DNA from: Cystobasidiopsis lactophilus
Taxonomy: Eukaryota > Basidiomycota > Agaricostilbomycetes > Agaricostilbales > Chionosphaeraceae
Direction: 5' to 3'
DNA length: 64,000 nucleotides
Assembly (NCBI GenBank): GCA_001599975.1
Contig: BCIO01000003.1
Span: 1,730,677 to 1,794,676 of the forward strand
Shown here one piece after another: positions 4,187 to 55,600 of the stretch. The notes under the pieces were generated by a model, which searched no databases, was not told the origin of the DNA, and saw nothing but the letters and a program-made list of their open reading frames with translations. The position numbers and the translations under genes are program-made. Every line of letters starts with the position of its first letter. Positions within the stretch are counted from its first letter, which is position 1.

Positions 4187-6517
4187 TCACACATACCACT
4201 CTGCTATGAGCAAAGCAGTGCTCCAGCTCTGGTACGCGACGAACGTTTTGAGCAGATCGGGCAGGAGCCTCAGGCTAAAGCTGCCACTCCAATATTGCGC
4301 CTTCATGCGGGCAAAGTCGTCTTTCCATACCGCTCTGGCGCAGAAGCGAGCCACAATGAGCCAGACTGTAGGCCCGTGGGTCGTTTGAAGTGCCGAATCC
4401 AAAGAGCTGCGATGTTTGTTTCAATGGATGGACATGAGTGCCACCGAGAGCGACACTTACCGCGTCAAATCGCTAAAGGAAGTAAACTTAAACCTGGGAA
4501 CTTTGTGCGTAGAGACGGGAAGAGTGCAGGGACTCACTTGAGTTTGAGAACCATCAGCAACCTTTTAGGGATTCGTCGCAGCATGTCGAAAATAGACTGC
4601 ATGAAGCCTTCAGCAATCACTGCCTGCCTTATGCGGTGAAATTCCTTGGCGTCGGACGGCGCCAGGTCCATCATGGAGAATGTCCGTTCCACATTGCCCC
4701 CTTCAGCCAGAGATGCGCGCCCTGTGATGGCGCTCTGGAAAACGAGGTAGAGGTCGTCGTCGATGCCTGCCAGCTCTTTTGCATACAAGCGCCGTTGACG
4801 TTCCGTCTCCTTGGTGGCGGGTGCGATAAGCGACATCCAGAAGCGCGCGTACTTGAGGCTGCGCCAAGATGCCATCCAAGTTGGCCTTCAGCCTCTTTCA
4901 ACAGAGTCAAGAGGCAAATACGCACCGAAGATCATCGGGAAGATCAAAATAAAGCCCTGTGCCAAAAAGTTTGAATTCCAGCAATCAGGCTTGCGGAAGG
5001 GCAATCCCACTCACCGTGGTCCAGCAGAGCTATTTCAAAATTGAAGGGAGATCTAGACTGGCTTGCTCTCGGCCGGATCTGGAGCCATGCGAGATCTGAG
5101 AAACAACGAGCCCGAAGACTGCGAGTAGGGCTCGCACCAAAAGATTGCCCAGGTGTGGATCCGCGTGAAACCAGCCGTCTTGGTAGATCATGCGGGCAAA
5201 GATGCGCGCTAGCTCCTGGGATACCTGGTTGCGGTTGATCTTGTGCTTGGCCAGATACTCTAGGTTGTCCACTCGGCCGCCGTCAATGAACTCCATCACC
5301 AAGACCCGCTTGGACGCGAACAGCACTTCGGGGATGACCAGAGGGGTCTGTCGAAGGTTCGAAAAGTTAAAGCGGCAACGCTCAGCATTGCGCGCCTCGT
5401 GGCGGAAATCCATTTCCAGCGGCAGATTCTCCTGCATCTCTTCGCCCAGCCACTCGAACGCAAAAGCGGGAAATAGTGCCTTTATCACGCGAAGCATATA
5501 TACCGTGGTTTTGGTGTCAATTGCGGCAAAGTCTTCCAGCTCCGGGTGCATGACTTTGACCGCCACCCGGCGCTTTGTCGCCCTGTGCTCGGCAACGTGA
5601 ACTTGAGCCAACGAGGCGACGCCCAGCGGCTCGGAATCGAAATCTGTGAACGTTTCTTGGATCGTCTTTCCCGTCTCACTGAAAAACAGCTTTTGCACAT
5701 CTTCGAGCCTCGTCGGGCTGCATTGGTCCTGTAGCGGTCGCATCCTGGAATCCTTTGAGCCTCCCGGCCTTCGACGAGGGACAAGGAGCTCACGTTGATG
5801 TCCATCTGCCGAGAGGCGTGTTTTCAGAGTACATTCGAAGAACCCTGTGACTTGGGAACGTACTCCACCGGCAGCATCTGCACTGAGCTGATATGCTGGC
5901 CGACCTTGACATAAACCCCTCCAAGCCGCTTCAATACAGACAGAATGCGCTGCGCGCACCGTCTGTGGCAATTTGAAAACTGCAGACGAGACCGCTTCGT
6001 TGAGACCAACTGGCGGCCAACAAATTCGACTACTCACGTCCTCGTGCCTCCGTTGCCGGGCAAGTCTCCCCTTTTCGGTATCCTTTTCCTCCTCCCCTGG
6101 CCATTTCTTGCGGAATAGTAGCTTGTAATCGATTATGTTGAGGGCCACGGCGGCGCCGACAAGGGAAGAGCGCTCCACCGCAATAATGAAGTGTCGAAAC
6201 GGCTCAACGACCGCAAAGGCGATAGCCCCAACTGCCGAGACAATAACAAAGGTGTACAAAAACGAACGCCCGGGACGCCGCCTTGCCTTGGGGCGGTTGC
6301 TGGCCCGAGTAGCCTCGAATCGCTGCTGGCTCCCGGGTCCCCTGCCCGACGCCGCGGTGACTGCCGCCCGGTAGGTCGGAAAGGAAGACACAACAAAGTT
6401 TCTGCAGTGCCAGCGGCGCAGCAGGGTCTGGTGGGTCGGAACGGGCTTGGAAGCGACGCCTCGACGAACTCCGCCGACTGCCGCTAGACACCTCAAAGGG
6501 GGCAGGCGGAAAGCCAT
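4187..6517 (-). CDS. MCP2: UbiB/ABC1-family atypical kinase-like protein, ADCK1/Mcp2 type
   Basis: Nine exons: 6038-6517, 5852-5979, 5794-5805, 5138-5744, 5015-5057, 4926-4956, 4538-4858, 4461-4472 and 4187-4406; about 617 aa. The N-terminus is basic and presequence-like, followed by a hydrophobic segment (FVIVSAVGAIAFAVVEPF), consistent with a mitochondrial inner-membrane protein. UbiB hallmarks are KRLGGVYVKVGQHISS, PLGVASLAQVHVAEH, VAVKVMHPELE, FHADPHLGNLL and FEIALLDHG. Yeast Mcp2/Cqd2 affects mitochondrial lipid and coenzyme Q distribution. Two exons are only 12 nt: 5794-5805, joining VPK to TMRPLQDQ through WTS, and 4461-4472, giving NDLTR. Skipping either removes four residues without changing frame. 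Most junctions are unambiguous; the donor at 5851 (GTCACA) is weak. Confidence 0.85.
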
Positions 6518-6958
6518 TTGGACGCGGGCGGGGTGTCAAAGGGCGACCAAGACGAACGCTATGGTGGGAGATTGCCACCGCTTGCACAAGAGGCAGAAAG
6601 TTTCAACTTTGCGAGGCGGCAAATTTCCACTATGTATGTGCACAACTTGTGGCTATGGTTTGGTCTTCTGCGCCAGCACGAAAGGCCGAAAATTTGCTCC
6701 TTATTCTCGTTGATCATAGCCCAAAAGCTTGAAGGGAGCGAATTCGAATTGGAATTTCAGAAGCCATTCGCCACCCATGTTGGCGTTGCCACAGCCTTTC
6801 AAGCGGGAAGGAGTCGCGTGGAGTTACCACAGAGCTGAGCTTGGCTCTCTATGGCATGGCAATGCCACCTCTCACAGTCGAGTTCTTTCCAGCTGACTCT
6901 TTGGAAACCAGCCTCTGGCCTTCTTGCGAGTATCCTGTACAGTAACTGATGAGGGCCC
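6518..6958. other. Intergenic region, MCP2 start to VPS29 3' end
   Basis: About 440 bp upstream of MCP2 and downstream of VPS29. I see no protein-family signal, tRNA or repeat here. Confidence 0.35.
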
Positions 6959-8037
6959 CTAAGCTCCATTGGGCTTCTCAGGGCTCCCCAGCCGGATTTC
7001 GACTGCAGCAGTACTTGGCAACACGCTCGCAAAGCTTGAAACGCAGAAAGAGCTGGCGCACCTTTTTCAACCTTGACTTCTCCATCTACTAGCGTATAGA
7101 CGTATGAGACGATCACGTAGCCTTGGATGTCCAGTAACACAAAGGAAGGTGTCGGGGTGGGCGGTGCTATCCCCTTTTCGACGGCGGGAGGCACCGAAGA
7201 GAAAGACGAGGCGGTAACAAAGGCGCCCGTCGCAGAGCCTGTTGCAGCCGTTTCATCAGAGACCTGGAAGGCACAGATCTCCGCTCGTCCGGGCCTTCTC
7301 ACCTGGCGAGACAAAGTACCGGCCGTCGTGCTCGTACGCCTCGAATCTGAACTAGCAAGGTCAATGCGGCATCAAGGCGCAATGCAGAGGGTACTCACCT
7401 GTGGGTCCCACCACTAATGAGCACGTCCACGTCCATGGTCCGAGCGAGGGAGTTGAGAGCGGAAGGGTCGCCGAGGGGCACAGCTTGATGACCGTGTACC
7501 AACCCCAGTCGCAGAGGACCGTGTTGGACGATCAGTGAAGGTGGGAGGGCCAAGTTCTGGGTGGGATGCGCCGTTGAGCCCTCGGGGGACGGTCTGAGCG
7601 GTAGGAGCCTCACATCATCCCAATCCCCTCTAACGCCGCGCACATCGGGCGCGACGCTTCTCAGATAGTCGAAAGTTTCTCGGTCACTGTGTAGCTCGAC
7701 TTGAAGCAAGGCATGCCATAGAGGAGGCCTTCGGCTGGGCTCACCAAGTATTGCCTGTCACTTTCGGGCCGAGAACAGTCTGAGTAGCGGTTGGGGCAGC
7801 TTAGAAAGCAATAGCTGCACCCACACAGTATCTGCTGAATCTTGCCGGGTACGAGCAGCTTCTTAAACTTGGCGGGCAAGTCGTGGCATCTGTTTTCGCG
7901 CCTGTGAGCCTCCGTCCTCCCTCGCAAGCGCAGCACAGTGCCAACCTGTAAGGGATGTGCAGGTCGCCAATGACCAAGACGAGCACTAAGATGTGGCCTC
8001 AGCAGAGAAAGGGACGCGAAGCTAGCCAATTACCCAT
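6959..8037 (-). CDS. VPS29: Retromer subunit VPS29 (metallophosphoesterase fold)
   Basis: Eight exons: 8034-8037, 7946-7985, 7825-7889, 7745-7754, 7399-7686, 7303-7346, 7062-7238 and 6959-7002; about 223 aa. Motifs are [60 protein letters not shown] and [19 protein letters not shown]29 scaffolds the Vps26-Vps35-Vps29 retromer for endosome-to-Golgi recycling. The first exon is ATGG only; the intron follows the first base of codon 2. The 10-nt exon 7745-7754 carries the NT of the GN-type motif. The exon 3 donor has alternatives (7825 versus nearby), so one or two residues there are uncertain. In place of the usual GHTH metal-ligand motif this protein reads GGTHR. Compared with the human protein it has an insert after GSATGAF. 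Confidence 0.88.
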
Positions 8038-8166
8038 GGTATCTGCGATTGGCGATCGTCGTTCTCGAAGGGCAAGAGTCACCGTTGCCGTATCTTCTCA
8101 GCTAGCACGTGGCTCCTTTGAGCCTGTCGGAAGACGCTTGTGGCTCGTTGATACGCTACAGGGTAT

Positions 8167-9066
8167 TCACCGTTCTTCTATCTCGTCAATCTCCAGCTCT
8201 CTCCTCTCTCTGCTGGCGAAACCCGTCCCAGAGACAAAGTCGTCCTCGTCCTCGTCGCTGATGTCCATGTCGCCGTCCATATCTTGAAAGGCTTCTTCCT
8301 CTTCTTTACGTGCTTGCTCGTCCCGTTGCTCGGCGTGTCGAAGGTGGTCGTGCCAAATGCCTTGCGAGACCGACTCGGCGTCGCCCTCGCCCAAATATCG
8401 TTGAACCAGCGCCAACAGCTCCTCTCTCTCTTCCTCCGTCTTCAGCCTCGATTCCAGTTCTTCTACCACCTGTTGTAAAAGGCATGAGCACCGGCAGTAA
8501 AAGGGCAGGGTCTTTGCTCGCTTCGAGGTAGCGGCAACCAACGCACCACATAGACTTCGGGCAGCGTCCTGGGCACCGTATTGACCAATTGGAGCATTTC
8601 TTTTTTGGTCAGGCCAGCGTTGAGGTTGGCAAGAGCCCGCGTGAGGGCTGCCACTTGAGAGGAGGACTGCTTGCACGTTGCAAGCTCGGGTTCTGATAGC
8701 CACTCCAGCGTCTGAGTCAGGCAAAAAGTGCGCGGATGAGCACACACGAAAGCAAGCAGAGCGCACCAGACCTAACGTACGGCTTTCTGGACTGTAGCGA
8801 CATTCTCTGGAAAGATGAGGCGTTTGCTCTCTCTGGTCTCATCCCAATGCGGCACATTGCGATGAGCTTCTTCTGCTTTCTCGACAGCAGCTCTGCGCTT
8901 GACGAGAAGGGAGCGGATGGCCGTCTCCTGCTCGGACTTCTCCTCGAGTAAAAAGTCCAACACCTCGCGATTGCTGATCATGGCGCTCTGGGCCTCCAGC
9001 GTCTGGCCCAAACGATGAATTCAGTCTCTCGATGCAATGTCTTTGAGGAAGATCGCTGACCTCCAT
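8167..9066 (-). CDS. RPC17: RNA polymerase III subunit Rpc17/RPC9 (CRCP)
   Basis: Four exons (9061-9066, 8781-9002, 8547-8711, 8167-8469) give about 231 aa. The first exon is ATGGAG, only 6 nt. The N-terminal part reads METLEAQSAMISNREVLDFL, and the HRDC-like helical domain includes GLTKKEMLQLVNTVPRTLPE and VVEELESRLKTEEEREELL, as in Rpc17/CGRP-RCP. With Rpc25 this subunit forms the Pol III stalk, which contacts TFIIIB. An acidic C-terminal tail (DMDISDEDEDDF) is longer than in the yeast protein. The stop lies about 130 bp beyond the VPS29 start; both genes are on the minus strand. Confidence 0.8.
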
Positions 9067-9333
9067 TCTGTCCTGAGGGTTGCCCGCGAGCTGGGCTGGA
9101 GCTCGGCGACTTGAGAAACTTCTGAGGAAACAACACGCGAGGTGGGCAATGCTGCGCCCTTGTCGAGGTCTGTCGTGGCTCTGAGAGCACTAGTTCTCTT
9201 CTGAAAGCTCGAAACCAGCGACGTCGTCGTGCGACGAAAACGAACCCTCTCCTCATTGTCACACTTGATCGACGACCTTCAACGCCGAACGAGATTGCTG
9301 CTCCCTGGTAGTCCTGTGCTCTTGAGCTACACG

Positions 9334-10475
9334 ATGCCATACAGGTGAGTGCTGAGCCGTCTGTTGCCCTGCTCTGCCCAATGATTGAGCATTGCTTGTT
9401 GTTTGCAATCGTGAACAGAATCGAGTATGCCAGCTCGGGAAGGTAGTTTTCAGACCCTACGATGTTGCCAGCATCAGCTCATAGCTTGGCCTTCGCTGAC
9501 CTCAGGGCTGGCTGCAAAGGCCAATGCAAGGAGAAGATCCGTGAGAGTCCTTTCCCTCATGCCCGGGAGGCCAGTGTGTCGCAGGAGCTCAAAGTCGGCG
9601 CCCCAGTCAAAGGCCAGCTGCGTGTGGGCACCCTGGTCACCATGCCACCCCGCGGCGGCGGCGAAGGCGACGGCCACTCCAGCTTTCATTGGCGTCACTA
9701 CGGATGTGAGCGGCGAGCAGCCAATATGTGCCCTGACGCTTGCGCTCAATCATGACTTTGTCGACGTCAGGCCTGACGAAAAGTAAGCAGTCTCAAATAA
9801 GATGCTGTCCCCTGGCCGCCCCAGAACTGAACTGCCCCGGCCGCAGAGGTTGTTACCAACATCGCCAATGTAAGCCGGGCCTCAGTCCAGCTGATTGATG
9901 AAGCTGACCATTTTCATCTGCTTAGGAGGTCGGAGAACCGAGCGAACTCGATGGCTACGACGACTTGCGTGCGGAGGGTTAGTTCTTCCGGTAGCGGTCT
10001 TCCGTCGCTCAGCCTCATCCTTTGCGGCCCAGACCAAAGCAAAGTCGACAAGGCTTTTGAGGATCTCAAGATCGCCGAGGAAGACGGCAAGTCCAGCTGC
10101 GATTGCCTTCTTTGGCCGGGCTAATGATGTTGTCGCTTTAGAGACGCCCAAGAAGCCCAAGGAGGGCGAAGAAGAGGGCGAAGGATCGGTTAGCCTTGGT
10201 TCTGCCCTTAGGCGAGGCGAACCTTTGTGGATGATGTCGAACCCGCCCACAGCCCGCCAAGCCCAAGCCCAAAGGCAAGAAGAAGAAGAAGGCCGACGAC
10301 GAGAGCGCCGACGAAGAGTGCGTGGTTCTTTCGGCCTTTGCTTGGTCCTCGTCCCTTAAGTAGTCGAGACAGGGAGAAGCCCAAGAAGCGTGCCAAGAAG
10401 GCGCCCGCCAAGAAGAAGCCGGCCAAAAAAGAGCAGAGCGACGAAGAGTGGCCGGCTTCGGACGAGGAGCGCTAG
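9334..10475 (+). CDS. Stand-alone PARP-type zinc-finger protein with Lys-rich tail
   Basis: Ten small exons: 9334-9344, 9419-9442, 9506-9705, 9771-9782, 9847-9869, 9926-9977, 10033-10086, 10142-10188, 10253-10317 and 10373-10475; about 196 aa. MPYRIEYASSGRAGCKGQC, GQLRVGTLV and WRHYGC form a zf-PARP domain, followed by EVGEPSELDGYDDLRAEDQ. Fungal single-domain zf-PARP proteins share this layout; they lack the ADP-ribose transferase domain and are presumed DNA-nick binders. The C-terminus is an alternating Lys/Glu tail. Exon 4 is 12 nt (9771-9782). The intron 10087-10141 starts with GCAAGT. The 9543-9576 stretch could hold a 34-nt intron but is read through because that keeps the frame. Confidence 0.78.
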
Positions 10476-10641
10476 AACTGCAGCCTCGCACTGCAAAGGC
10501 CAGACTGCGTCTCGTTCAACCAGCATGGGCAACCCTGGGGTCTCGCTTGTACGGCGCCCATAACTCTGCTCTCGAAGAAGCACGCGGCAATTTGGGAGTC
10601 GGCACCCTTGCTCCCGTCCACCCATCCCCAATCGTGTGCAG

Positions 10642-11995
10642 ATGAGCTACGAGTTGAGCTTCTTTGTGCGATTTATCGCTTGAGACGCTGCTGACAGTAG
10701 TGCAGCAACCCCGACTCTGCGATCGGCGGAGCAGCCAACATTGTAAGTGCATCCATCAATCATGCATGCATCATAACTGCTCGACTCAGATATGCGCTCA
10801 GAGTTTTACTGTTCCACCGAGGCAGTGTGGCAACACGACTCTAACCTGGATTGGCGGACAGCAGCCTGTGGTGAATCATGCTCTAGCCGCCAGGACGCAA
10901 CATATTTGGCTCAGTTGTCTGCACGATTTTCCAGCGGATCGAGTTTTACCAGCAGAGCGCCGAGGACGACGATGATCCTTGGGACGTTGTCCCTCAAGGC
11001 ATGCAGAATGTTGTGCGGCTCCTCCCTGTCTTAGCCCTTTTGCCGATGGCTCATCGCGGTCTTGCATGGGGCGTCTTAGCGCGGCCAAAACTTGTCGTGG
11101 ATTGTCAACGTTCGATCAGACAAGCTGCTTTGGGTCAGCATTGTGGATCACAGCGGAAAGTACACCCAGAATCAGGTCGCTTTCGCGGTCGAAGAGAGTG
11201 AGGACACGGTTCGTTGATCATTTTGCTCGCAACCTCAAGGCCCGCCGCTCACCGGGCTACCTCGAACAGAGCTGCATCACCGAAGAGCGACATGTGGACG
11301 CGGACCATGCTCTGACGACCCCCGAGAAGGCGCTGCTGGGCATCGTTGCGCTCCTGCTGGCTGTTGTAGCGGGGCTCATTTTCACGTTGCTCCGTGGACG
11401 CAAGAGTCGCTCCCGCTATGGACGCGCCCGTACCAGGCCAGCCAACATCGACACCGACCTCCAAACCGCGTCGCCTGAAATGCCCTTCCAGCCTTTTGCC
11501 ATCCAGACTTCTCACCTGGCGCCCACCGCCCGGCAGGGCAGCGCCCTCTCCCCGCAGTCGGACACGCTCGTTCAAAGCTATTCCGACAATAGCAGCTCAA
11601 AACCGTACAATCCCTTTGCAGACAAGGCTGACTCGCCCACCACGGCGCAGACGTATAATTCGCGCCTGCCACTGCTGGATGACGGCCAAGGGCGGGAGAT
11701 GGCCGAGCTGGGTTTTGGGGCGCCCCTGGCGCAGGCGCAAAGCAACCGCTCGTGGTCAATTCGGTCCAGCGCGACGCCTTCCATCCAGTCCTCGCACGGC
11801 GAAACGATCGAGACGCTCGCCACTGCCCACACTTCTTCGCGTGGCTCCACCGGCGAGACCGCCTCGCAATGGTCGGAAACCGAACCGGCCTCTCAGAGCT
11901 CAACGCCGCAGTTCTTTCCCGTCCGCGTCCCCGTTTCGGCGGCCAGCTGGCGCTCTCACAACCCTTTTTCAGATGCTAACGCGGCATCACGGTGA
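10642..11995 (+). CDS. Single-pass membrane protein with two extracellular beta-domains (sensor-like)
   Basis: A likely model is 10642-10652, 10706-10742, 10790-10870, 10935-11012, 11080-11208 and 11270-11995; about 353 aa. The ectodomain has CGNTTLTWIGGQQP, typical of a fungal repeat seen in secreted and wall-sensor proteins, then LSWIVNVRSDKLLWVSIVDH. A single TM helix (ALLGIVALLLAVVAGLIFTLL) is followed by a basic stop-transfer segment and a cytoplasmic tail of about 200 residues, rich in Ser/Thr, with repeated NPF motifs (PYNPFADKAD, SHNPFSDAN) that could bind EH domains. I found no convincing signal peptide, so the true 5' exon may lie upstream. The function is not known; a role as a surface sensor or sorting-motif-bearing protein is inference. 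Confidence 0.6.
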
Positions 11996-12946: not shown

Positions 12947-14306
12947 ATGGACGCCGGAGGGCAAAACGCAATCCTCCCTCTTGCACTCAAGCGGCCTCCT
13001 CATCTCAGCTTCGGCCCTCGTGGGAGAAGCAGCACTGGCTGTAATAAGCTGGTAGAATGTGAGGGATCTCTGCCGGCTGGCTCTAGGAGCCCGCTGACAG
13101 AGCCGTAGGTCCTCGACAAGTGCCACACGCTCGGATTCGACCACACCTTCGCTCTTTGGCACTAGCTCCTACAACTCTGGCTTGGCGTCCTCGCTGGCAT
13201 CCAGGGCTTCGGCATTGCCGTCTGGAACGGGCGGCTCGACACCCCCAACTAACGCGACGAGCCAAGAGCCGATCGTAACCTCCCAGACGCCCCTGTTCGC
13301 ATGCATCCCAGCGAGCTACAACATAACTTCGGGCACTTCTCCTTGTGCGCGACCAGCCATGGCTCATTTAGCCATTACTCGATCGGTGGATGTAGCGCTC
13401 AAGTGTTTAGCTGCCCACAGACTCCGATGTTTTCTTAATTGCGAGCGGCTCCGTCAATGCCACCATTTTAAAGACCTTGCCGCCTGAGAACGTGGGCGGT
13501 GTGTTCAGCTGGGGCGTGGACATCGAGCCGGTGAGCTTTTGTGCCGCGCGAAGCCAGCAGCAGCGGTTGTTTTGTCCATTTGACGCGGACCGGCAGGGCA
13601 CTTCCATAACTTTTGTCGTCAAAGACGCCTTAGGGCTGACGGGCTACTCGACACCTGTGGTCATCCAGACGAGCAACAACCTTTCATGCCTGTGCGTCCA
13701 ATGGCTGGGTTCTTTGCCCGGTCTCCTCTTGTTGAAACAGCTGTGGATGCCTCTACAGCGTGCGTGGGTTCATGCCTGTTGAGCTAGGTACTAAGAGGGC
13801 TTTTTCGACGACAGCCGGGTCACAAGAACCACACTGGCGCTATCGTGTGCGTAACCCTTGCCTACACTGTCGAAGCAATGCCCAATTTTTCAGGTGCATG
13901 TCAGAGGCGGCGTTGTAGGTGGCCTCGCCGGCCTGTCCCTTTTGGCCCTCGGCATTTGGCTCTTCTGTATCCGGCCCGCGAAGACCAAACAGCGCCCGAA
14001 AGACACGTATGGCGAGAACGAGGAGCTTTCCAACGTTCCAGTACAAGGTCTTTCGGCAGCCGGGACATACAACCTTGCATCGAGTGAGTGGCCTCCGCCT
14101 GCTCTGTGTAGCGCAGCCCTAACTCCGTACGAGCAGTGGATTTCCGACCTGAAAGTGAGCCCGCGTCAATGGCCGTCTGTGGATCGCCTGGGCATGCTGA
14201 CAACAATGTCGCAGGCATCGAACAGTTACAGAAGGCCCGTCAAGCTGACCTTCCAAGCTATCAGCTGTCGCAACAGGAGCGGATTGCGGCAGGACATGCG
14301 GAGTAG
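12947..14306 (+). CDS. Second single-pass sensor-like membrane protein
   Basis: A Ser/Thr-rich region (about 13090-13280) leads to CIPASYNITSGTSP, which joins across an intron (13345-13420) to YSDVFLIASGSVNATILKTL. FSWGVDIEP (exon 13421-13530) then joins GTSITFVVKDALGLTGY (exon from 13597). This has the same two-beta-domain pattern as the gene at 10.6-12 kb. The TM helix is GLAGLSLLALGIWLFCI near 13925-13975, and the cytoplasmic tail ends QERIAAGHAE with TAG at 14304-14306. The start, the exon before the TM segment and the last junction are uncertain. A signal-peptide-like stretch exists near 12990-13040 in one frame. It is a probable tandem paralogue of the first membrane protein, although the tails are unrelated. 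Confidence 0.5.
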
Positions 14307-20091: not shown

Positions 20092-21644
20092 ATGGAGGCT
20101 TACGCGCGCTTGGTAAGCCCTGGCCGACGGCAGAGCGAGGCAGAGCTCACGTCGTGTTCGTCCAACAGGAAAAGGTCGGCGAAGGTGCGGTTTCACCCTC
20201 CCTGGGCAGCCTGTGTGGCAGCTAGCTCACTCGAGGGCGAACTAAAGGCACCTATGGAGTCGTGTACAAGGCCCGCGACGCGAAGACGGGCAACATTGTC
20301 GCGTAGGTTGCGGATTCTGGCCCGGATGCAGACCAGCACGGGGCGAAGGGCGCTGACATTTGCTGTCCAGCTTGAAGAAGATCCGGCTTGAAGCTGAAGA
20401 CGAGGGAGTGCCGTCAACGGCCATCCGCGAGATCAGTCTGCTCAAGGAAATGAAGGACCCAAATATCGTGCGGTGAGCGAACATTCCGTCGCCGCAAGCG
20501 TTTGCCCACCTTGGACTGGTGTTGACGGGTTGGATGTGACGCACAGCTTGTTGGACATCGTGCACCTCGACTCAAAGCTGTACCTCGTCTTCGAATTCCT
20601 CGACATGGACCTGAAGAAATACATGGACAAGGTGTCGGCGGAGTCGGACGGCATGGGCCCAGAGATTGTCAAGGTGCGCTATACCTCTGTTACTCGTCGA
20701 CTTCTTCCTCAACTAACACGGTCACCGGGATGCGCAGAAATTCACATTGTGAGCGCCCCTTCCCTTACCGCCCAACGCCAGCACTAGTTGACTTCGGCCG
20801 CCCACGTCTACTCAGCCAATTGATCAAGGGCGTGTACTATTTGCACGCTCATCGCATCCTCCACCGTGATCTCAAGCCGCAGAACCTCCTGATCGACCGC
20901 AACGGCGAACTGAAGTTGGCCGACTTTGGCCTGGCGCGGGCCTTTGGCATCCCGCTCCGCACATACACACACGAGGTGGGATCTTGTATGCCAAGCGGCT
21001 AGTAAGGCGGCTGAGCGAACGCAACGTGCCAGATTGTCACACTTTGGTATCGCGCGCCCGAAGTCTTGTTGGGCTCGAGACATTACAGGTGCGTCTACCA
21101 AACGCTCTGCCCGTACTTCTAAACCGAGCATCTCGAATGGCAGCACACCGGTCGATATGTGGTCTGTCGGCTGTATCTTTGCAGAAATGGTGGCAAGGGC
21201 GCCCTTGTGAGCCGGCTTTGCTTGCGTGCCGGTGCTGTTCCGCCTGGTTGACCTTGCGCGGCCCCACACAGGTTCCCAGGTGACTCTGAGATCGACGAAA
21301 TCTTCCGGATCTGCCGGTGCGTCTGCGTTTGCTAATGCCAAATCTCTGAGAAGGCTGAGGACGCCTGGCAGCCTGCTTGGCACCCCGAACGAAATCGTCT
21401 GGCCCGGTGTGACATCTTTGCCCGACTACAAGGCTATCTTCCCGCAATGGGCGCCCAAGGACCTGGAGACTAGCATCAACAATCTCGACGAGATCTCAGC
21501 AGATCTTTTGGCGGTGAGTTGCCCACTATCTTCGATCGGGCGAGCCTGCGACCTGACTTTGCTTCTTAGCAAATGCTTGTGTACGACCCATCCAAGCGAC
21601 TGAGCGCAAAGGCTGCACTTCAGCACGAATACTTTCGTCGGTGA
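20092..21644 (+). CDS. CDK1: Cyclin-dependent kinase 1 (Cdc28/Cdc2)
   Basis: Twelve exons: 20092-20112, 20169-20184, 20248-20302, 20371-20472, 20547-20673, 20738-20748, 20816-20975, 21033-21088, 21144-21206, 21272-21316, 21372-21513 and 21570-21644; 290 aa, a normal CDK1 length. It has [11 protein letters not shown] with inhibitory Thr/Tyr, LKKIRL, the PSTAIRE helix, [28 protein letters not shown]-loop [17 protein letters not shown] and SVGCIFAEM. It drives S-phase and mitosis entry with cyclins. Exon 2 (16 nt) splits the glycine loop. Exon 6 is only 11 nt and encodes KFT within [15 protein letters not shown]. All junctions are GT-AG. Confidence 0.95.
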
Positions 21645-21987: not shown

Positions 21988-23419
21988 ATGGCCGCGCTAG
22001 ACCTTGCATTTGGGCCAGGGCTCCTATTTGATTTGGTTGCTCTGGCTGTTGCCTTTTGGCTGTGGCGGCAAATCGCAGCGCGCAAGGGGGCAAAGGCCAA
22101 GCCTGAGACCAGCCTGCCAGTCGACAGCGGCTTGCCTCCCGCCGTGCGCCCAGACTTTGATCTCGCCCAAGTAGAACCCCTTCAGATCAGGCCATTCAAG
22201 CCAGTTTACCACATGAGCATGGGTGAGAGACTTTCTTACCGGCTGTTCTTTGGCTCAGGTGTGGATCGAGAGCAGGGATCATGGCATGTAGCTCGACCGA
22301 CGAGTTCTTGATCGACCGACTCTATGGCGAGCGCATCGAAGAACGCAAGCGGGTGCTAGCAGATCATCCCATTGTGGCCCGCGGGTCGCTGAAAGGCTCA
22401 AGGAGCGCGCTCGAAGAGCTCTACAGCTACGCACAACAGCGCATGGCCGCACGATATCCGCGCTACTTCACGATGGGCAGCAACCATTTCTGCAACCGGG
22501 TGTCGGGCGACGTCTTCCCTGTGTCAGCCCAACAGTTGACTCCCGAACAAATCCTGGAGAACCTCGGCTCCATCGTGGAGGATGACCTCCTCCTTCTGTC
22601 CGAGGAGAGGGACCCCAGCTCGCCATGTTATGGAGAGTACCGCCTGATGGCTTTTGTGGTGTGTGCTCCGGCCGGCTTCCGAACGGATCACAAGCTGGGG
22701 CTGGCCTTGAAAGACGTGTGGCCATTCCGCCGCTTCTATGCACTGCGCAGCTCATTCAGCCTCTTTGCCTTCTCTGCTCAGATCCATGGCCCTGTTCCCA
22801 TGTACAAAGAAAAGCTGCAGGTCGGCATGGACCGGTTCTTCGCCCGGCTGCCTGCCGGCAAGATTGTAAAGCGGCACAAGTGACGCGGTTTCTGCTGTGT
22901 TTGGAGCCCCCACACTCAAAACAGATAACGCAGCTGGTCGATCGCTACCCGACCTGATTTGTTCACGCCCGCTGGAAACCACCTCTACGACACCACCGAG
23001 GCCGTGGACCAGGTGTCGCCTGAGGTCGCGGCTGAATCGTTCATGCGCGTCGAACGGCAGGTGCTCCGCCGCCTCCCTGACTCGGGCGCCATTGTCTTCA
23101 GGCAAGTCTCGGGCACGCGAGGAGACGATCACTTGCTTACGGAAAGCACAGGTGCCGCTCTCTCGTTGATTCAGCCACGGGCTTGAGCTTATTCCGAACT
23201 GGCCAAAAGCGTCAAGACCTACCTTTATGAGCTCAGGGTGCTCAGAGACGAGGGCGTCGGCTCCGACTTGGCACTTGCGATCGGTGAGTGCCCGCGAGTG
23301 GCCAGCGGATGATTTGTTTTGAAGAACCGTCGAAAGCAGAGGGCTTGCCGCAAAAGCTTGCCCATTACAAAGCCCGCCCGCGTTGGGGTGAAGCGGTCAA
23401 GGATTACCTTCGGTCATGA
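21988..23419 (+). CDS. DUF3445 protein (heme-dependent oxidative N-demethylase-like)
   Basis: Exons 21988-22222, 22276-22879, 22934-23101, 23210-23283 and 23340-23419 give 386 aa. It starts with a membrane anchor (LLFDLVALAVAFWLWRQIA), then a DUF3445 core: RPFKPVYHMSMG, DEFLIDRLYGERIEERKRVL, VCAPAGFRTDHKLGLALKDV, FFARLPAGKIVKRHNWSI, DLFTPAGNHLYDTTE and SVKTYLYELRVL. Bacterial relatives are heme enzymes that demethylate dimethylamine; fungal members are uncharacterised, so the substrate is unknown. The third intron, 23102-23209, begins GCAAGT and is needed to join IVF to SVKTYL. Confidence 0.78.
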
Positions 23420-23777
23420 TCCCTAGAGATACGAAAGAAGTGGGACGGACGCCACCACTCAAGCCAACTGCGTCGAGTCCTTTGTCGCAGGGGCGTCTCT
23501 CCACAGGCCCCGCTCCTATGCCATGCAACTGAAAAAGCCATCGCGTGGCCTTATATCTGTATTAAATGTAGAAAGAGGTTTGAGAACTCAGATCAGCGCC
23601 TAGGGACGAAGGGGGGCAAGAGTCGAGAGTGAGAGTGGCAAGTCAGACCTTGCTCCTGTTCCGTCACCCGCAGCTGCAAAGTGCAAGGCTCCCACCACTA
23701 CGACTGGATGTGCCTGCTTCATACTTTAACGCTCGCCATGTTGTAGACAACAGAACGTTGCGACCCCCGGCTCCAGA
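23420..23777. other. Intergenic region upstream of TSC1
   Basis: About 360 bp, with no coding, RNA or repeat signal recognised. Confidence 0.35.
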
Positions 23778-31004: not shown

Positions 31005-31907
<903 letters not shown>

Positions 31908-36637: not shown

Positions 36638-37471
36638 CTACTTCGTCTCCTCCTTCTTGCCCCTGGTCAAAGGCGTTCCGATGTCTTTGCCTCTCAGCTG
36701 TTTCGGCGTCCTGGTCACCAAGGTTGGGCACCTGGGAAGCGTGGATCCAACGCACCTTGACAGCCAGCTTCGGAGTGGCTTGAGTATGACTGCTGTGGCC
36801 TGTGCAGCACCTCGAGAGGACTCACCACACGCTCCAGCTTGCCCAAGACCTGTGGTGAAGGGACGGCCTTGCCGTCTGGTGGCAAGTGAGTCAGGGTTGG
36901 GAGCAAATCGAATTGTTGGGCAAGGGTGGCTTACTCTCGTAGGACTGCACAACGGTGGCTGTCTCGTTGATCTTCTGTGCCAAATCCTTCTGCGTCTGTG
37001 GATCGCGAGTTTCAATCTCACGGCGGGAATGTGCAATTGCTAGCATCACGGCGAACGTACCAAGGACTTGTCCTGGCGGGCCTTGGAGATAGCTCGACCG
37101 ACGCTCATGTCGATCTTTTCCGGGGGCGCCACCTCACTGTAACCAACCCAGCCAACCCATTGAGTTCGGCACAAGGAAAAGATGACAAGGGGCCAACGCA
37201 CTTCTCCCGATCCAACTTGGCGATGCGGGCGTGGTCAGGGCCTTTCATGGACGCCGCGTTCTTTCCACCGGTCGCTAAAGTAAGCCAGGGTGAGCTTGGG
37301 CACCTGGCAGTACATGCGAGGGAAGGGAGAAGGTGGCGAACTCTTCTTCTCGGTGTCGACAGCGGCGCCGCTGCGCTTCGCTTTGGCAGCATCCTCGGCC
37401 GTCACAGTGCGAGTCGTGCCCTTGGCCCGAAAGCCAATGACGGTTTTGCTGTCCCAATCGGTGTCGGCCAT
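36638..37471 (-). CDS. MBF1: Multiprotein-bridging factor 1 (MBF1)
   Basis: Seven exons: 37342-37471, 37202-37274, 37061-37136, 36935-36995, 36826-36875, 36756-36767 and 36638-36697; 153 aa. MADTDWDSKTVIGFRAKG, RSGAAVDTEKK and KGPDHARIAKLDRE form the MBF1 N-terminal domain. The helix-turn-helix domain reads SVGRAISKARQDKSL, TQKDLAQKINETATVVQSYE, PSPQVLGKLERV-LAVK-LRGKDIG. MBF1 bridges TBP and bZIP activators and counters ribosomal frameshifting. The LAVK of helix 5 is encoded by a 12-nt microexon (36756-36767) with clean AG and GTGCG flanks. Confidence 0.92.
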
Positions 37472-39100: not shown

Positions 39101-39101
39101 C

Positions 39102-40410: not shown

Positions 40411-40415
40411 GTGCG

Positions 40416-45655: not shown

Positions 45656-45699
<44 letters not shown>

Positions 45700-47874: not shown

Positions 47875-48095
47875 GCACTTTGGAGAGAGTTGTTGCGAAG
47901 AATGCTCTGAGCACCAGAGCCCAAGATCGTGGTGGTTCGGGAACTAGGAACACTCGAGTCGGGCAAGAGGCTCGCTCACATTCATCTCTTACCACACCCT
48001 CCACCTACTTGCACCAATGCGTGCCTAAGCTCTGCTCTAGGCTGCGTACAGCATCGTCAGCAGCCGCAACAATCTGCGCTCGTCTCGATCTTATA

Positions 48096-50877
48096 ATGGC
48101 AACGCCTTGGGGTGATCTGCCAGCGCCAATACTCGAGGAACGATTCCTATACGCAAAAGCAGAGCTGCTGGACGATATCCATGCCGCCCCTGGGACTAAG
48201 CTACCCGCGCAATGGCGAGCCTTCACCGACAAGGAGAACCAAAGGCTGCTCGATGCGTGGAGCGATTTGAATGTCGAAGCTCGCAACGCAGCCATTCAAG
48301 CCCGCCTGCGCGGCCTCACCACAGCAGAGCCAACTAGAGAGAAAGAGCGGGAGAAGAACGAGGAGTCGTTTGGCGACCCAGACGCTGTCCTTGCTCCTCA
48401 TCAAGTCCCCGTTGGCCTCGACTCACTCTTCGTGGTGTGCGTTATTTGGCACATGCGTCTGATTGTTCCTATTTTGCTCATCACGCGGAGTGACTCAGCG
48501 ATCTGTTGACCCTGGAGTGCCTTCCGAGTTTCTGGACGGCGTCACACATCCCAATCCTGCCAGGTACTTGGTTCTTTGCCCCTACGACGATCGGTCGCTA
48601 CTCCGCTGTCGATTTCGACCTTGCCAAACGCATAGAATCGTCCTACAAGCAGATTGGAAGCTGGCACCCGAGCTATGGTGACGAACTGGCGGCTGCGGTT
48701 TCGCTTGGGTCGGATGCCGAGCAAAAGTTGAAGGTCGAGCTCGAGGATGTCGCTGTCGATGTCATCTTCCAAGGCCCGGACTCCGCACGCATCTACACCC
48801 GGGGGGTTGCAGGACGACTCTCGAAATCAGTCTTGACCACCTTCTTGTCGTCTGGCCGGATGCATGCAGGGGGGACTTTGGTGCTCCGCGGCTTTGATGC
48901 TGTGAGAAACTATGAACACGTCCAACTTGTAGCAAAGCCGCCTTCTTCCGCTGGTACAACCTCGCCGTCCAAAGTCTCACGGCCAGCCAGCCCGTCCCGC
49001 CCGCCACCCTATGCTCCGTCCGACGACGCTTCCTCTAAAGTAGCATCTGCGGCAGAGAGGCTAGCCAGCATTCTCAAATACAAGTCATCCTCGACGTCGC
49101 TCAAAGAGGCCGCTTCTCGCGTCGATGGACCGTTCCCTACTCTTGCAGAGGCTACCCAGGCGACTGCCTCAAAGCCCGATGGGTTTCGAGTCAATCCCGC
49201 GCAAGAAACCGCAAAGATTGCCTTCGATGATTCTCCGAAAGTCATGGACGACACCTCAAACGTTATGGAGTCGGCTGGGCCGGATCAAGCGCCAAACCAG
49301 GACCATGCTCCATTGACGGACCTGGTTCTCGTAATCCACGGCATCGGGCAGAAGCTGGCGTCGAAGTACGAGTCATTCTCATTCGTCCATGCCGTCAACA
49401 CCTTCCGAGCCAACGTCAACAAGCATTGCTCGGACCCCCAGTTCGAAGAGGTCGTCCGGGGACGCCGCGTCCAGGTGGGTTCTTGTCTTGCCCGAGTTGC
49501 TTTCTCAAAAGTTGATGAGTGAGCGTCGCAGATGCTGCCGATTCGTTGGAGGATCAACCTGAATTTGGACGAGATCGCGCTAGATTCGGACGAAGATTCG
49601 GCCGCCGATGGCCTCGATAATCACTTCACAATGCAGGACATCGAGCCGGCGGGTGCGCTCCAGTTCCCATACGTGAACTTCGCTCACCTCTTGTGATAGG
49701 GATCCCTTTTGTGCGCGAAATGATCTCAAACGTTCTCATTGACATCCCGCACGTAGGTCCGCCCTCTGAGTCTGCAAATGCTGCCATGTTGATGCATCGC
49801 GAGGCAGTACATGTCTCACCACCGGGAGAAGCTGATTGCGGCCGTTGTAAAAGATTCAAACCGCGTATACCGCCTTTTTTGTGCTCGGAATCCGGGCTTC
49901 GACGGCACTGGTAAAGTCCACCTGATCGCGCATTCACTGGGCTCGCCGCTCGGTTGGTACATTTGTTCTCACCTCTAAAGAATTAGAACCTCAATTTTGC
50001 GGTGTAGCCGTTGATATCCTGTCTTACCAGCCGACGAGAGTGCCGCTTCTCAAAGACCTTCCTCTGAAAGCGCTTCGGTCAGAAAAGACCTTTTGCTTCA
50101 ACACGTCCTATTGCTTCTTCTTTGGCTCGCCTGCGGCGTTTTTCTACCTCCTCAATGGCGCCCAACTGATCGCTCGCAAAGGCCGAGCTCGCACTCAAGA
50201 TTCGGCCCCAGACATTGCCCTGGACCGCCCCCGCTACGGTTGTCTATCGATTGACTCGCTATACAACCTGTACAACGTGACTGACCCCGTTGCGTGTAAG
50301 CACTGTCGTGTTTCTAAGGGCGCCTCTCAAAGGGCCACCAGATGCGCTCAACCCGGTCGTGGACAAAGCCTACTCCAAGAAGGTGAAGCCGCAGTCGATC
50401 CAAGCGTCGACCTCCACCATGCTGCACACTGTTAGCTCCAGAATGTCCAAGCTCTTCGAGAATGTCAGCTTTCCGACGTTTTGGACGAGCTCGGGGGACG
50501 CTAAAGCGGCCAGCGAAGCGGAAGAGGCTCCAGGGGAGCCCGAGCCTGCTAGTGCCTCGGCTCCTGCCGAAGAAACATCCGAATCGAAAGCGGACATCCG
50601 AGCCAAGAAACGGTTGGTTCCTGTCGTTACACGCGGACGAGCACACGCTGAAAGGGCGCGAGGTAGGCTGCTGGCTCTAAACCCACTCGGAAATATCGAC
50701 TTCTGGCTTCCCGACGAATCCACTTTCGGAGCCTACTACTCCCTCTTCCTTTCTCACGCATCGTATTGGGCGGATCCCCGCGTCTCCGCCTTTGTAGTGA
50801 CACAGTTGTTCGCCTCGCCCGAGCAGCTCGAAAAGACAAAACACAAGATTGACTTGGACAACCAGGCAAGACAGTAA
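48096..50877 (+). CDS. DDHD-domain phospholipase (phosphatidic-acid-preferring PLA1 type)
   Basis: Exons 48096-48436, 48499-49474, 49532-49652, 49700-49752, 49808-49952, 50008-50295 and 50342-50877 give 819 aa. The N-terminal WWE-like part contains FWTASHIPILPGTWFF; then DLVLVIHGIGQKLASKYESF, LIDIPHYMSHHREKL and the lipase serine motif HLIAHSLGSPLAVDIL; then CFFFGSPAAFF, NVTDPVAYALNPVVDK and a DDHD end IDFWLPDES...SHASYW. The expected nucleophile motif is GHSLG; here the first residue is Ala. Such enzymes hydrolyse phosphatidic acid and act in membrane traffic and mitochondrial lipid turnover. The stop lies 25 bp from the stop of the opposing GT25 gene. Confidence 0.85.
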
Positions 50878-50902
50878 AGCAGTAAAGCCCTGTTTGACGC
50901 TG

Positions 50903-52389
50903 TCAATCGGCTGCCTGCTTCTCCAGCAATCCAAGCGCCTGCAGCGCGCTCCTTTCCAATCGGTCGCGCCACTTGCTGCCGGTGCCCCTGAAAATGTCCG
51001 ATTGGGTGTCCTTGGTCTGGCGGTGCATGCGAGCATAAGCGTCTACGTTTTTGGCATAGTCATGGTCTGGTGCCGCACCTGTACGATTACACTGGGGAAG
51101 ATGGAATACGACTTGAGGCGATTAGTGGCGATCAGGTGTACTGCAAGAGCCATTGAGCTCAACTTGTACACACCCCACTGACTGTCAGCTCTCACCTATC
51201 GCCTGGTCGAATGGTCTAGAGTAAGCAAATGCCGGCGATCGCAAATGACGAAGCTGAAATGGGCAGATCAGTTCGGCCTACCGGTCAGCAAGTACCCCGA
51301 ACAGCCTAGCCCACCATTCGAAGGGCGCCCTGTCTCGAAACAGCGTATGCATGGTTGCATTTGGGGGCATAGGATGGCCTCAGGGCAGGTTCTTCGACTG
51401 ATACGGGCGGGAAGAAATCTTCTTTGGACCAACAGTGTCCTTGCAGCGTCGTGTTCAGCTTAGATGTACCGCGCGGAGCATGAAAGGACGCGAACCCAGC
51501 ATGACAAGATCCCAATCTTGCGGCAGCACCTTCCACACCTTTTCTAAGCGTTCGGCGATGTCAACCTTCAACCAAGCGGATGAGGCTGGGTTGCAAGCGG
51601 AGAGCCAGCAAGTGCGCCTACCTCAAAGTCGATATCGTCTTCTAGTATCAGAGCGCTTGCGTCACCGGACGCGGTAAAGGTCCGGAGCGCCAGGACGTGG
51701 GAATGCCAGCAGGCCACGGCCGCTCTTGAAAGAACGCGCCACCAATGCTTCGACCCATGCTGGCTGTCGGTGTCAATGGCCGGCCGCAAGTGATGAGGAT
51801 GCGAGGAGGGGTTCTTGCCCAGCGCCAGGTCCCTGCGCGAGCCGTTGACGACAGGAATGGGCAGGGAGTCAACGACAGCGACAGCAGCTTCCCTCTTGCC
51901 AAGCTCCCAGTAGTCGGCTCCGGCAAGACGAAGGTCTGCTGCTTCGGGGTCGTCCTGGTACTGGTACACATCGGGGAGGTACAGGTCGTTCAAGCGGTGG
52001 TTGGATAGGGCTCGCGACGACTTTGGTACGCGCTCTGGGCAACCTCGGGGCCTTCCACACCAGCCTTCTGCCTCCCTTTGTGCTTTTACGTTCGACATGA
52101 TGCGAGAGACCACAGAGTGCGTGGCGGCCATAGCGGGCGAGAGGGTAAACTCGAGGTGAAAGCCCTTCGCCAATGCCTGAAGCCGCTTTCTTCGGTCCCG
52201 CCGCGATGGAAGGCTTATTGTATAGATGGTATCGAATTGAAGCGTGTGCGTCCTTGCTACTGCAGAGTGCTTGCGCTTGTGGATTGCGACCATTGTAGCC
52301 AATCTTGGACCTCTCCCTCGACGCCAGAACGCCCCTAGGAGCGCGCACAGGCATAGGGTCAAAGCACACAAGAAATGTCTTGTCTTCAT
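50903..52389 (-). CDS. Glycosyltransferase family 25, type II membrane protein
   Basis: Six exons (51622-52389, 51496-51565, 51315-51439, 51196-51253, 51079-51140, 50903-51016) give about 398 aa. The chosen start, MKTRHFLCALTLCLCALLG, gives a short cytoplasmic tail and signal anchor as in Golgi glycosyltransferases; an in-frame ATG 108 bp upstream is possible. GT25 motifs are IYTISLPSRRDRRKRLQAL, ACWHSHVLAL, ALILEDDIDFEV (DxD-type), DWDLVMLG, AYAVSRQGALRM and PFDQAIVHLIATNRLKSYSI. The sugar and acceptor are unknown. Fungal members are sporadic and related to bacterial LPS and animal collagen galactosyltransferases. Confidence 0.8.
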
Positions 52390-52684
52390 GGTCGTGCACA
52401 AGCTGGCTGTAGGCAGGTGTTCTGAATGGCAGGTATGAAGATTCAGACCGGAATGCCGGCTGGCGGGCAGACTCCTCTCCTGAACACTGGGCATCATGCA
52501 GGCAGCAACCTAGCAGAGCACTAAGCATTCTATTCATTGCTGGAAGATCAGATACGGTCGCTGTCCTGAAGCTTGAATGCTCGTCTCTGGGGCGGCAGAT
52601 GTCACACGGGCATCTTGTCATCTTCTGGTAGAGCGGTGTCTATGAAAAGGGCATTGTACTAGTAAACAGGCAAGGACACGTAGA

Positions 52685-55600
52685 TCACTGCTTGCCCTTG
52701 ATGTCTTTAGCGTTCTCGAAGGCATAGCTGCGAATAAGGCCTGCCCCTCGCAGCCACCCAAGAAAGCTCTTCCAAACGTCTTGACCCTCTCGCTTCTCCC
52801 CTTCTAGAGTTCTCTGATTGCCCTGGTAAGAAGGTCGCAAGGTTAGTGGGCATGACAGCCAGCCGCCGGGTCCAGTCTTACCACGATGAAGAGTGCCTTC
52901 TTGGCCCGGGTCAGCGCAACATTGAGGCGCCGGTGGTTCTCCAAACTGATATGATTTGCGTGAGTCATGAAGTAGGCACGGTGAGTCAACATACAAGCCG
53001 ATGTCTTGGTTCCGGTTGGACCTTACGGTCGACAAAATGATGACCTCCTTCTCCCGGCCCTGGAATGAATCCACAGTGTTGACCTCGAGCTGACCTTCAT
53101 GGAACAGGTTCACTAAAGGTTTCAACTCCTGCTCGAGCCCGGCGTAGAGCTGGAAGCGCAAGTCGGAGAGCAGCGTTGTCTGCGCTGTGTAGGGCGTCAC
53201 CACTCCAATGTCATCAAGCTCCAGATGCTGGTTGCTGCGCAAAAGATCAAGAATCATAGAAGTGATGATTTCGACCTCTCCAAGGTTTTGGCGGCTCTTC
53301 GCGGCCTGGTGCTCTGGCACACTCTGGTCGAGGAAGACGACCTGGCGGCCGTCTGGCAGGAAAGAAGACCTGATTGGATCCTTGGCGACTTCATTGATGG
53401 GTTGAGAGGCCGTGACAAGCTGGGAGTTGTAGAACGCCTGGTTCGAGAAGGCGATAATATCAGGTGCCATGCGGTACTGCTCTTGAAGCATAATCTGATG
53501 ATTCGCTTTATCAGCACACGCAGAAATCGGCTTGGCGTTAAGCGTACCGAGGGGACGTCTGCGCTCCGTCTCGATTGAGCTACATAGAGGGGAGACTACA
53601 ACGGAAGAACGGCGCACCCGAGTTGCTCTTTAAGCTCTCAAACAGGCTGACATTGAAGCCCATCTTGTCGGCTTCCAAGTTCTGTTGAACGGAGGCATTG
53701 GACAGATGCATTCTGGGTCGAGGTATAAGACGCACCGAACAAGTACTTTGGAGCTGTTGGTGGTCTCCAATGAGGACAGCGTGCTCGCATCCTCGGCTGA
53801 GGGGAATCAAAGAAGTTGACTGGTTGCATTGGGCCGCTTCATCCAAAAGAACAAGAGGGAAGTCCAGTTCCTGCGCGAGACCTTGTTATAGCCCTGTCTG
53901 TTAAGCACCGCGGGCATCTCACATCGAGATTTTTGGTGGCTGCACCAGAAGCCGTGGACAGGACGCAGTCACTGCTCGCAAAGACGTCGCGGCGGATGTC
54001 GAGGAAGATGGCTTGACTTCGCTTCCTGGCGCTCTGATGCCGTTTCATGAGTTCGACTGCGGATTACACGTTAAAATCGACGGGATGCAAAACGCCACAG
54101 AAATAACGCACTGATGTACGCCGAATTGGGCGTGCCAGGAGGCAGCGGCTTGTCATCAAGTTTCTCAACCTCTATGCCAAGGATGGAAAGTTCTTTTCGC
54201 GCGGAGGACGCTTCCGAGCGCGCTTCAAATAGGGCACCAAAGCTCGGGTGCTCCTCGACTTTGGTTTCGAAGGAGTATTCCATGCAGTCGTCCGCAACAC
54301 GTTCGGCGGCTCCCATGCGCAAGGGCTTCAAGCCTTGTCTAGCGGCGGCACGCGTCATGTTGTCGACGGCGGCATGCGTCGGTGCACACGCCAAGATGGG
54401 CACTGGGCTTTGAAAGAAATGCTTGAGCAGCAAGAGAATGTGTACGATGGTTTGGGTTTTGCCAGTCTGTGAACGCCATTACTTAGCTTAGACCTGGGTG
54501 TTTGATGCGGTGATCGCTTACCCCGGGCGGCTGTTGGAAATACCCAAAAGTCAGAACCTAAAGCAAGCACGAGGCAAGGTTCGGTGACTGACGCCTTGTA
54601 TCAACGTCAGCCGGTGGTGCAACGCCATTGCGATTGCTTGGATCTGGATGTCGTTCAATGCAGGCTTCAGTTCGGGGTCGCCAGGCATTGTTTGAGCTGG
54701 CAGATGGAGATGCCGTCGAATCCAGCTGTTGACGCGCTGGTCTTGCCTGAAGAGCGCTGACTCGATTTGCAAGGGATCTCTGGTGAGGAGCGAGTGGAGG
54801 CCTGGGACGATGAAGTCTCGTAGGTCGGTGCCTTGCTGGATCAGGGACACCCGGTCGTCGCCGCTCTCAGGACTGAACTTGCTGTCCAAAGTAAATTGCT
54901 CGCGTCGCTGAGCATTGCGGTCGAGGCGGAGCAACTCGACCGCGTTTTTCTGCCGAAGGTAGATGGTGTCGTCGAAGTCGCTGTCGATTCGGACATGGTC
55001 CACAGGGAAGGCCTTGGGCAGTGGCGCTTTGAGCCACAATTGAATCTCGCTGCGGCCGATGAAGGAAATCCGGCCAGTGATCGCTGGACCATCGTCTCTG
55101 GTTGGCCAAGGTCTCAAGACTACAGGGGAGCCAATCCTGGGGCGGGTCTCAGCCAATTCGCTTTGAAGGAGGACGAGGAGTTGCTACAGACTGACCGCAA
55201 GCGATGGCGAGGCAACGGCAGTGGAACCCCGGTGGTGTCCGATACAGCTTGCCCTGCGGCATTGACTTTGACAGAGTTGGCTAAGAGCTGGTAGACTTGA
55301 AGACCGCCATGCGTGAAGTGATGTTCCTTCGGTCGCAAGCGCAAGTCGAAAAGGGTGAGCCTCTCGTCCGGTGAAGGATTCTTGACACTCATGCGGCGCT
55401 CGACTTCGGCTTCGGCCTCTTTCATTTCCAGGTCCTGCGCAGGCGAACCACCGTTGATTAGCGCCTGTGTCTTGGAGCCTGGATGCACGCTCACGATCAT
55501 CCTCGACTGCTTCACAGCGAATTCTCTGACGAGCGCAATAGCGCCAAGGCTTTCGTCGGCCACGAGGATCTTGTCGGCGCCGCTTTTCCGCCTAACATGG

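Follow-up and report, generated by a model that had tools for sequence, protein, structure and literature searches.

Conserved genes of the basidiomycete Cystobasidiopsis lactophilus, namely those of a cyclin-dependent kinase, a UPF1-like helicase, MBF1 and NAC alpha, need exons of 9-16 nucleotides (nt) for intact proteins. These genes lie in a stretch of 64,000 nt, C3:1730677-1794676 of a genome of 22.1 Mb in 8 contigs; the whole stretch analysed is called the window below. The best-supported reading, with a probability of about 0.82, is that the exons are genuine and probably constitutive microexons, set between ordinary introns of about 50-77 nt that stand 9-16 nt apart and would be intron-defined and removed one by one. 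An initial annotation had placed eight such segments in the window with AG before and GT after each of them, and both dinucleotides were confirmed for all eight on the coding strand. All of them are open in frame, and all are microexons in the sense of internal coding exons that do not exceed 30 nt and are bordered by canonical splice sites at either end:

54522-54530, minus strand: microexon of the UPF1-like SF1 helicase gene, 9 nt, encoding PPG of Walker A (IQG-PPG-TGKT); flanking introns of 62 and 55 nt
20738-20748, plus strand: microexon of CDK1, 11 nt, encoding KFT(F); flanking introns of 64 and 67 nt
36756-36767, minus strand: microexon of MBF1, 12 nt, encoding LAVK; flanking introns of 58 and 58 nt
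31074-31085, minus strand: microexon of EGD2 (NAC alpha), 12 nt, encoding (I)NAI; flanking introns of 77 and 52 nt
9771-9782, plus strand: microexon of the zf-PARP gene, 12 nt, encoding (C)LTK(K) and completing the cysteine codon; introns of 65 and 64 nt
7745-7760, minus strand: microexon of VPS29, more likely 16 nt, encoding LTGNT(C); flanking introns of 64 and 58 nt
4461-4472, minus strand: MCP2a, microexon of an ABC1-family (MCP2-like) gene, 12 nt, encoding (N)DLT(R); introns of 65 and 54 nt
5794-5805, minus strand: MCP2b, second microexon of the ABC1-family (MCP2-like) gene, 12 nt, encoding (E)WTS(T) or MDIN, depending on the flanks

The exon ends first proposed were kept in seven cases out of eight, while the 10-nt exon of VPS29 gave way to one of 16 nt, which supplies the TGN residues, is favoured by the Metallophos_2 profile and appears in both gene models described below.

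Protein families and homology-free gene models

Proteins deprived of the microexon were run by phmmer against the PDB, and gaps at the site were recorded. A gap of 4 residues was found in CDK1 and in MBF1, of 3 residues in the UPF1-like helicase and of 5 residues in VPS29, and the matches of EGD2 stop short of the microexon site. Domain scores of Pfam, compared with and without the exon, increase for five of the eight listed exons by 1.1-20.2 bits, including AAA_11 of the helicase (76.6 against 56.4 bits for 54522-54530), zf-PARP (79.1 against 62.3), UBA_HYPK of EGD2 (46.0 against 39.7) and HTH_3 of MBF1 (47.5 against 44.9); the 16-nt form of VPS29 exceeds the 10-nt form by 9.5 bits. The restoration of family residues, claimed earlier for every segment, is seen at six sites (PPG, KFTF, LAVK, INAI, CLTK and TGN), and both exons of the MCP2-like gene fall outside the ABC1 match of Pfam.

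Spliced alignment, in which no exon size was assumed, splice sites were scored flat and the PDB alignments supplied the templates, recovered four exons: 11 nt in CDK1, 9 nt in the helicase, 12 nt in MBF1 (with a yeast-type template) and 16 nt in VPS29. The template for NAC alpha stops before the EGD2 microexon, and the alignment of CDK1 starts inside another small exon of this gene, 20169-20184.

Genes were also predicted by a homology-free, two-strand Viterbi gene finder, based on codon usage, splice-site and branch-point matrices and intron lengths, which puts no cost on exon size except the intron cost. The first model was trained iteratively on the window and on 200 kb of contig C1, 264 kb together; the window had been picked for its small exons, the C1 stretch had not (position p of this stretch is C1:1000000+p). 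In the two stretches 114 genes with 682 introns were predicted, and all eight sites were recovered, VPS29 as 16 nt. The second model, retrained on the C1 stretch alone and seeded with 14 window introns, none of them beside a listed exon, recovered all eight sites again and gave VPS29 the 16-nt exon instead of the 10-nt one. The margin over the best path lacking the microexon amounts to 6.0-14.5 bits for six of the listed exons, including 7.4 bits for MCP2b.

The initial list of small exons proved incomplete, as the following rows show, the last of which gives the end of the EGD2 gene:

53548-53558, minus strand: second microexon of the UPF1-like helicase gene, 11 nt; flanking introns of 59 and 53 nt; missed earlier
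20169-20184, plus strand: exon close to the beginning of CDK1, 16 nt; introns of 56 and 63 nt; missed earlier, predicted ab initio only
9847-9869, plus strand: adjoining exon of the zf-PARP gene, 23 nt; missed earlier; margin of 4.6 bits, in both models
31005-31021, minus strand: last exon of EGD2

The helicase exon 53548-53558 lies 17.0 bits over the best path without it and raises AAA_12 from 73.0 to 82.4 bits; the CDK1 exon 20169-20184 has a margin of 8.6 bits. Both are present in both models. Since conserved genes need exons of 9-16 nt, annotation pipelines that drop such exons damage key motifs.

Ends of the VPS29 and MCP2b exons

The splice signals of the two forms of the VPS29 exon are nearly tied, with 12.4 for the 10-nt form (7745-7754) and 11.6 for the 16-nt form (7745-7760). 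Solved VPS29 chains have the residues TGN, which the 16-nt form alone supplies, and the score of Metallophos_2 is 54.3 bits with this form against 44.8 bits with the shorter one. The 16-nt form was chosen by both gene models, the first of which was seeded with it and the second was not; a length of 16 nt is more likely than one of 10 nt. The microexon has two usable acceptors 6 nt apart (AAAG and ACAG), of which that of the 16-nt form lies upstream, and the use of one or the other would make the difference between LTGN and CN.

The MCP2b exon was found with two sets of flanks. If 5864 is the end of the upstream exon and 5744 the start of the downstream one, the introns are 58 and 49 nt long and the exon reads (E)WTS(T), VEWTSTMRPLQDQC, which we take to resemble the MCP2 family; with the flanks of the gene model itself, the introns are 54 and 65 nt long and the exon reads MDIN. 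The former flanks give 208.4 against 205.5 bits for ABC1, the difference of 2.9 bits being added by the downstream-exon extension MRPLQ, which sets the frame of WTS. Ab initio, they score 2.3 bits less (117.2 against 119.5), and the gap opened there by ABC1 chains of the PDB measures 8 rather than 4. The coordinates of MCP2b stand, and its flanking junctions probably differ from those first given.

Frequency, length and frame of small exons

Internal exons of up to 24 nt, the limit for small exons in all length counts, number 24 in the C1 stretch, and 13 of these do not exceed 15 nt. The Pfam test was applied there to 20 segments covering all 24. For all 14 small exons located within a Pfam domain, the score with the exon exceeds that of the best path without it, by 3.1-31.7 bits; isocitrate dehydrogenase, with 70.3 against 51.4 bits, forms together with the listed sites the clean or nearly clean skips of this test. 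Small exons are also found in the families of 6-phosphofructo-2-kinase, of an ammonium transporter and of Rot1, which Pfam lists as fungal and which is one sign in the gene content that the genome is that of a fungus. The small exon of Mnd1, located at the domain edge, brought no gain (74.0 against 73.9 bits). The occurrence of these exons in an unselected stretch supports the earlier proposal that this lineage splices very small exons routinely.

Three small exons, of 4, 21 and 10 nt, belong to one carbon-nitrogen hydrolase gene at 22862-23592 of the C1 stretch. Eight kinase loci, each about 3.5-4 kb long, have 28 predicted internal exons, all of them longer than 24 nt.

Predicted introns have a median length of 59 nt, 642 of the 682 falling within 40-79 nt, and their density is 3.8-4.7 per kb of coding sequence, or about 7 per predicted gene. 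For the 61 introns beside small exons (margins of 5 bits or more), no difference from the remaining 613 was seen in length (58 against 59 nt, p = 0.81) or in signal (14.4 against 13.7 bits, p = 0.15). A smaller group of single introns is about twice the usual length: 17 of the 682 are 110-139 nt long, compared with 11 of 80-109 nt.

The numbers of small exons were compared with random placement, in which the introns were assigned random positions within every predicted coding sequence (1000 simulations of 88 genes with 665 introns) and the expectation was corrected for sensitivity. Exact recovery of planted exons was 71 per 110 for lengths of 1-3 nt, 86 for 4-6 nt, 84 for 7-9 nt, 91 for 10-12 nt, 89 for 13-15 nt, 84 for 16-20 nt and 92 for 21-24 nt. 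In both stretches together, 22 exons of 7-15 nt were seen and 21.8 expected, 18 of 16-24 nt were seen and 20.8 expected, and 5 of 1-6 nt were seen against 13.5 expected (P = 0.0075). The C1 stretch alone contains 11 exons of 16-24 nt (14.7 expected) and 3 of 1-6 nt (9.5 expected, P = 0.0145). Very short exons are thus no commoner than dense random introns predict, and are rarer only below 7 nt. The recurrent size of 12 nt, emphasized in the initial annotation, accounts for 6 of 21 small exons in the window and 0 of 24 in the C1 stretch, and the 12-nt class was dropped as the central reading for the latter reason.

Random-like exon lengths, the lack of compensating signals in the flanks and the lack of frame bias led to a tentative proposal, to which we give somewhat less than even odds: splicing may set no minimum exon length down to about 7 nt, with a real floor just at 1-6 nt. 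If this is true, the genome provides a measure of the steric limit on exon length under purely intron-defined splicing. The comparison with random placement, together with near-uniform introns, makes minimum exon size testable by RNA-seq.

A number of observations speak against, or are awkward for, genuine microexons made by dense, near-random introns. In exons of 7-15 nt the two stretches deviate in opposite directions, with 12 seen and 6.3 expected in the window (P = 0.03) and 10 seen and 15.3 expected in the C1 stretch (P = 0.10), so that the pooled match is partly an average; likewise, exons of 15 nt or less make up 14 of 156 internal exons in the window and 13 of 421 in the C1 stretch (p = 0.006). 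Human chains of the PDB align straight across the zf-PARP site without a gap, the Pkinase domain of CDK1 gains just 1.1 bits from the microexon (250.1 against 249.0), and with a human MBF1 template the aligner favours a longer upstream exon and a 113-nt intron. Paths without microexons in the C1 Pfam test often retain intron sequence, and the gain is then partly loss of junk; minor secondary Pfam matches shift the opposite way in places, e.g., MFS_1_like with 15.4 against 15.7 bits. The margins of MCP2a (1.6 bits, the lowest) and VPS29 (2.6 bits) are weak. The seeds of the first gene model comprised 24 window introns, 8 of which adjoin listed microexons at four sites, with VPS29 entered as 16 nt, and the second model was therefore built without such seeds. 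Predicted genes include likely fusions, e.g., MaoC with THOC7 around 16172, and CDK1 with its neighbours.

It is unlikely that the microexons are regulated cassette exons whose in-frame skipping, with loss of 3-4 residues, switches protein function, a reading that would liken them to neural microexons or to the Xlr2 switch of Trichoderma. Five of the listed exons of 12 nt and one of 9 nt, six of the eight, keep the frame, and a regulated microexon is reported in Trichoderma virens (PMC11121469). However, multiples of three are found at chance level among the 45 small exons of the 264 kb (14 exons, with remainder 1 in 21 and remainder 2 in 10; binomial p = 0.87), and no excess of frame-preserving lengths was detected. 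Selection for frame-preserving skips should raise their share, and the silent splicing switches suggested initially are accordingly unsupported. Skipping would also remove PPG of Walker A, TGN of VPS29 and the cysteine of zf-PARP, a loss that should inactivate the protein. Exon skipping is tied to long introns in PMC6142364, and those beside the small exons here are, on the contrary, short and ordinary.

The possibility that microexons are absent, each gap being filled by one long intron or by shifted ends of the flanking exons, is still less probable than regulated skipping. It draws on the human MBF1 template, which permits such a structure, and on 18 gaps of 105-165 nt left as single introns in the model. 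The Pfam and PDB comparisons contradict it in most testable cases, and intron lengths are tight. Competing candidates are few: frame-compatible AG..GT segments of 1-40 nt number just 1-3 per gap in the six listed gaps other than the MCP2 pair, and in five of the six the claimed exon is the sole candidate (CDK1 20738-20748 and helicase 54522-54530) or more than 12 bits ahead, VPS29 being a near tie. Planted long single introns yielded a false microexon in only 15 of 500 cases (9 of 250 with Markov filler and 6 of 250 with intergenic filler), while 38 of 56 real gaps of 105-165 nt were resolved into microexons (Fisher p ~7e-33). Due to the narrow range of intron lengths, gaps of about twice the intron length can serve as a homology-free sign of hidden microexons. 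As a general account of the 18 single introns, hidden exons of 1-6 nt were rejected after few good decompositions into two introns were found.

Equally improbable as the absence of microexons is the view that predicted exons of 1-4 nt compensate for indel errors of the assembly or for true frameshifts. The shortest calls, of 1 nt at 13759 of the window and at 1269 and 20016 of the C1 stretch and of 4 nt at 1116-1119, hold almost no coding information; exons of 9-16 nt encode family residues and are outside the reach of this explanation. The candidate 1-nt exon at C1:1001269, on the minus strand, belongs to a gene of a Rho/Ras-like GTPase and is flanked by introns of 56 and 64 nt. The spacing GMFSYVYEPTVF agrees with that of the Ras family, which scores 95.3 bits with the exon against 75.6 bits for a compared path that differs upstream too.

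The least probable alternative is that some gaps of double length are stwintrons, an intron nested in an intron with no exon between: for 2 of 19 single-intron gaps of 100-140 nt, nested decompositions score 12.3 and 17.1 bits and thereby exceed the 99th percentile of the control (11.6 bits, 188 spans), but this number is small, the scan was post hoc, and six of the listed segments encode family residues, so that an exon is needed. The nested fits were obtained for intron gaps in gene 62 (134 nt) and gene 49 (116 nt) of the C1 stretch. With 2 of 19 above the control percentile, stwintrons were rejected as a general account of long single introns.

Probable intron definition and known microexons

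The gene structures show the small exons, their frequency and the ordinary character of the flanking introns; for the splicing of these exons as constitutive microexons, intron definition, bridging by Prp40 and sequential removal are most likely, by analogy with published work. The introns are short and uniform and have clear branch points, in keeping with intron definition. Each intron would be recognised alone across its own length, with U1 at the 5' site pairing with branch-point factors about 60 nt away through Prp40-type bridging, and the exon would be spared recognition as a unit. A segment of 9-12 nt is too small to be shared by two spliceosomes at once, and the introns are therefore most likely removed in succession; after the removal of one, the remaining intron would border an exon of normal size. 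Microexons may arise because introns are dense and near-random in coding sequence.

A Prp40-like protein is encoded at C6:786009-786836 (L029). Its scores are 45.0 bits for WW and 114.0 bits for FF, two WW and two FF stretches pass the threshold, and FF_PRPF40A, with 25.3 bits, is slightly below the cut-off of 27. A second WW-FF protein, at C2:1611407-1612150 (L031), has a partial match to the TCERG1 WW profile (32.8 bits, cut-off 70). The profile SRRM_C (PF15230), for activators of the eMIC type, has no match in the genome, and the control genomes likewise have none.

In Caenorhabditis elegans and mouse cells, microexons are described as too small for exon definition, intron definition is proposed, and PRP-40 helps where introns are long; the introns here are of about 60 nt, for which that source gives intron definition as the default, whereas long introns and cell-type regulation are features of the animal case (PMC8378409). 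The microexon switch of Xlr2 in Trichoderma virens is regulated by glucose; both cases are fungal, and the regulation by glucose sets Xlr2 apart (PMC11121469). Constitutive exons of 1 nt between short introns are those of Arabidopsis APC11, for which the authors favour intron definition and successive removal (PMC4674806), and of Fusarium CYP621A, argued partly from an intron of double length (PMC12940212). Both of them are 1 nt long and have transcript support, in contrast to the exons of 9-16 nt considered here, which are known from gene structure only (PMC4674806, PMC12940212).

In basidiomycetes, microexons encoding 2-10 residues are reported, together with short introns, for roughly one in three P450 genes of Phanerochaete chrysosporium; this is one family, and the alternative splicing proposed for it has no sign in the exon lengths here (PMC1184071). 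The bglA genes of basidiomycetous yeasts have cDNA-backed microexons of less than 30 bp, e.g., 10 of 22 exons in Rhodotorula minuta with the smallest of 6 bp, and introns of 60 +/- 4 nt (PMC9142197). Microexons and short introns are common to both cases, and bglA is a single gene family (PMC9142197). A link to bglA failed: two genes of family GH1 found here have 12 and 11 predicted exons, none shorter than 39 nt. These genes, of the beta-glucosidase type, are adjacent and in tandem at C5:285297-290008 (L032 and L033), and a downstream gene (L035) has a predicted exon of 13 nt. In Cryptococcus neoformans var. grubii, RNA-seq revealed 3.35 introns per kb of coding sequence, 5.7 introns per gene and exons down to 1 bp (PMC3990503). 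This basidiomycete is alike intron-dense; its exons are known from RNA-seq and those described here from gene structure, and the passages of that paper used here contain no comparison with random intron placement, which is given in the present analysis (PMC3990503). Microexons have thus already been reported in Cryptococcus and other basidiomycetes, and those of C. lactophilus add one more well-supported case, here set against a quantitative null.

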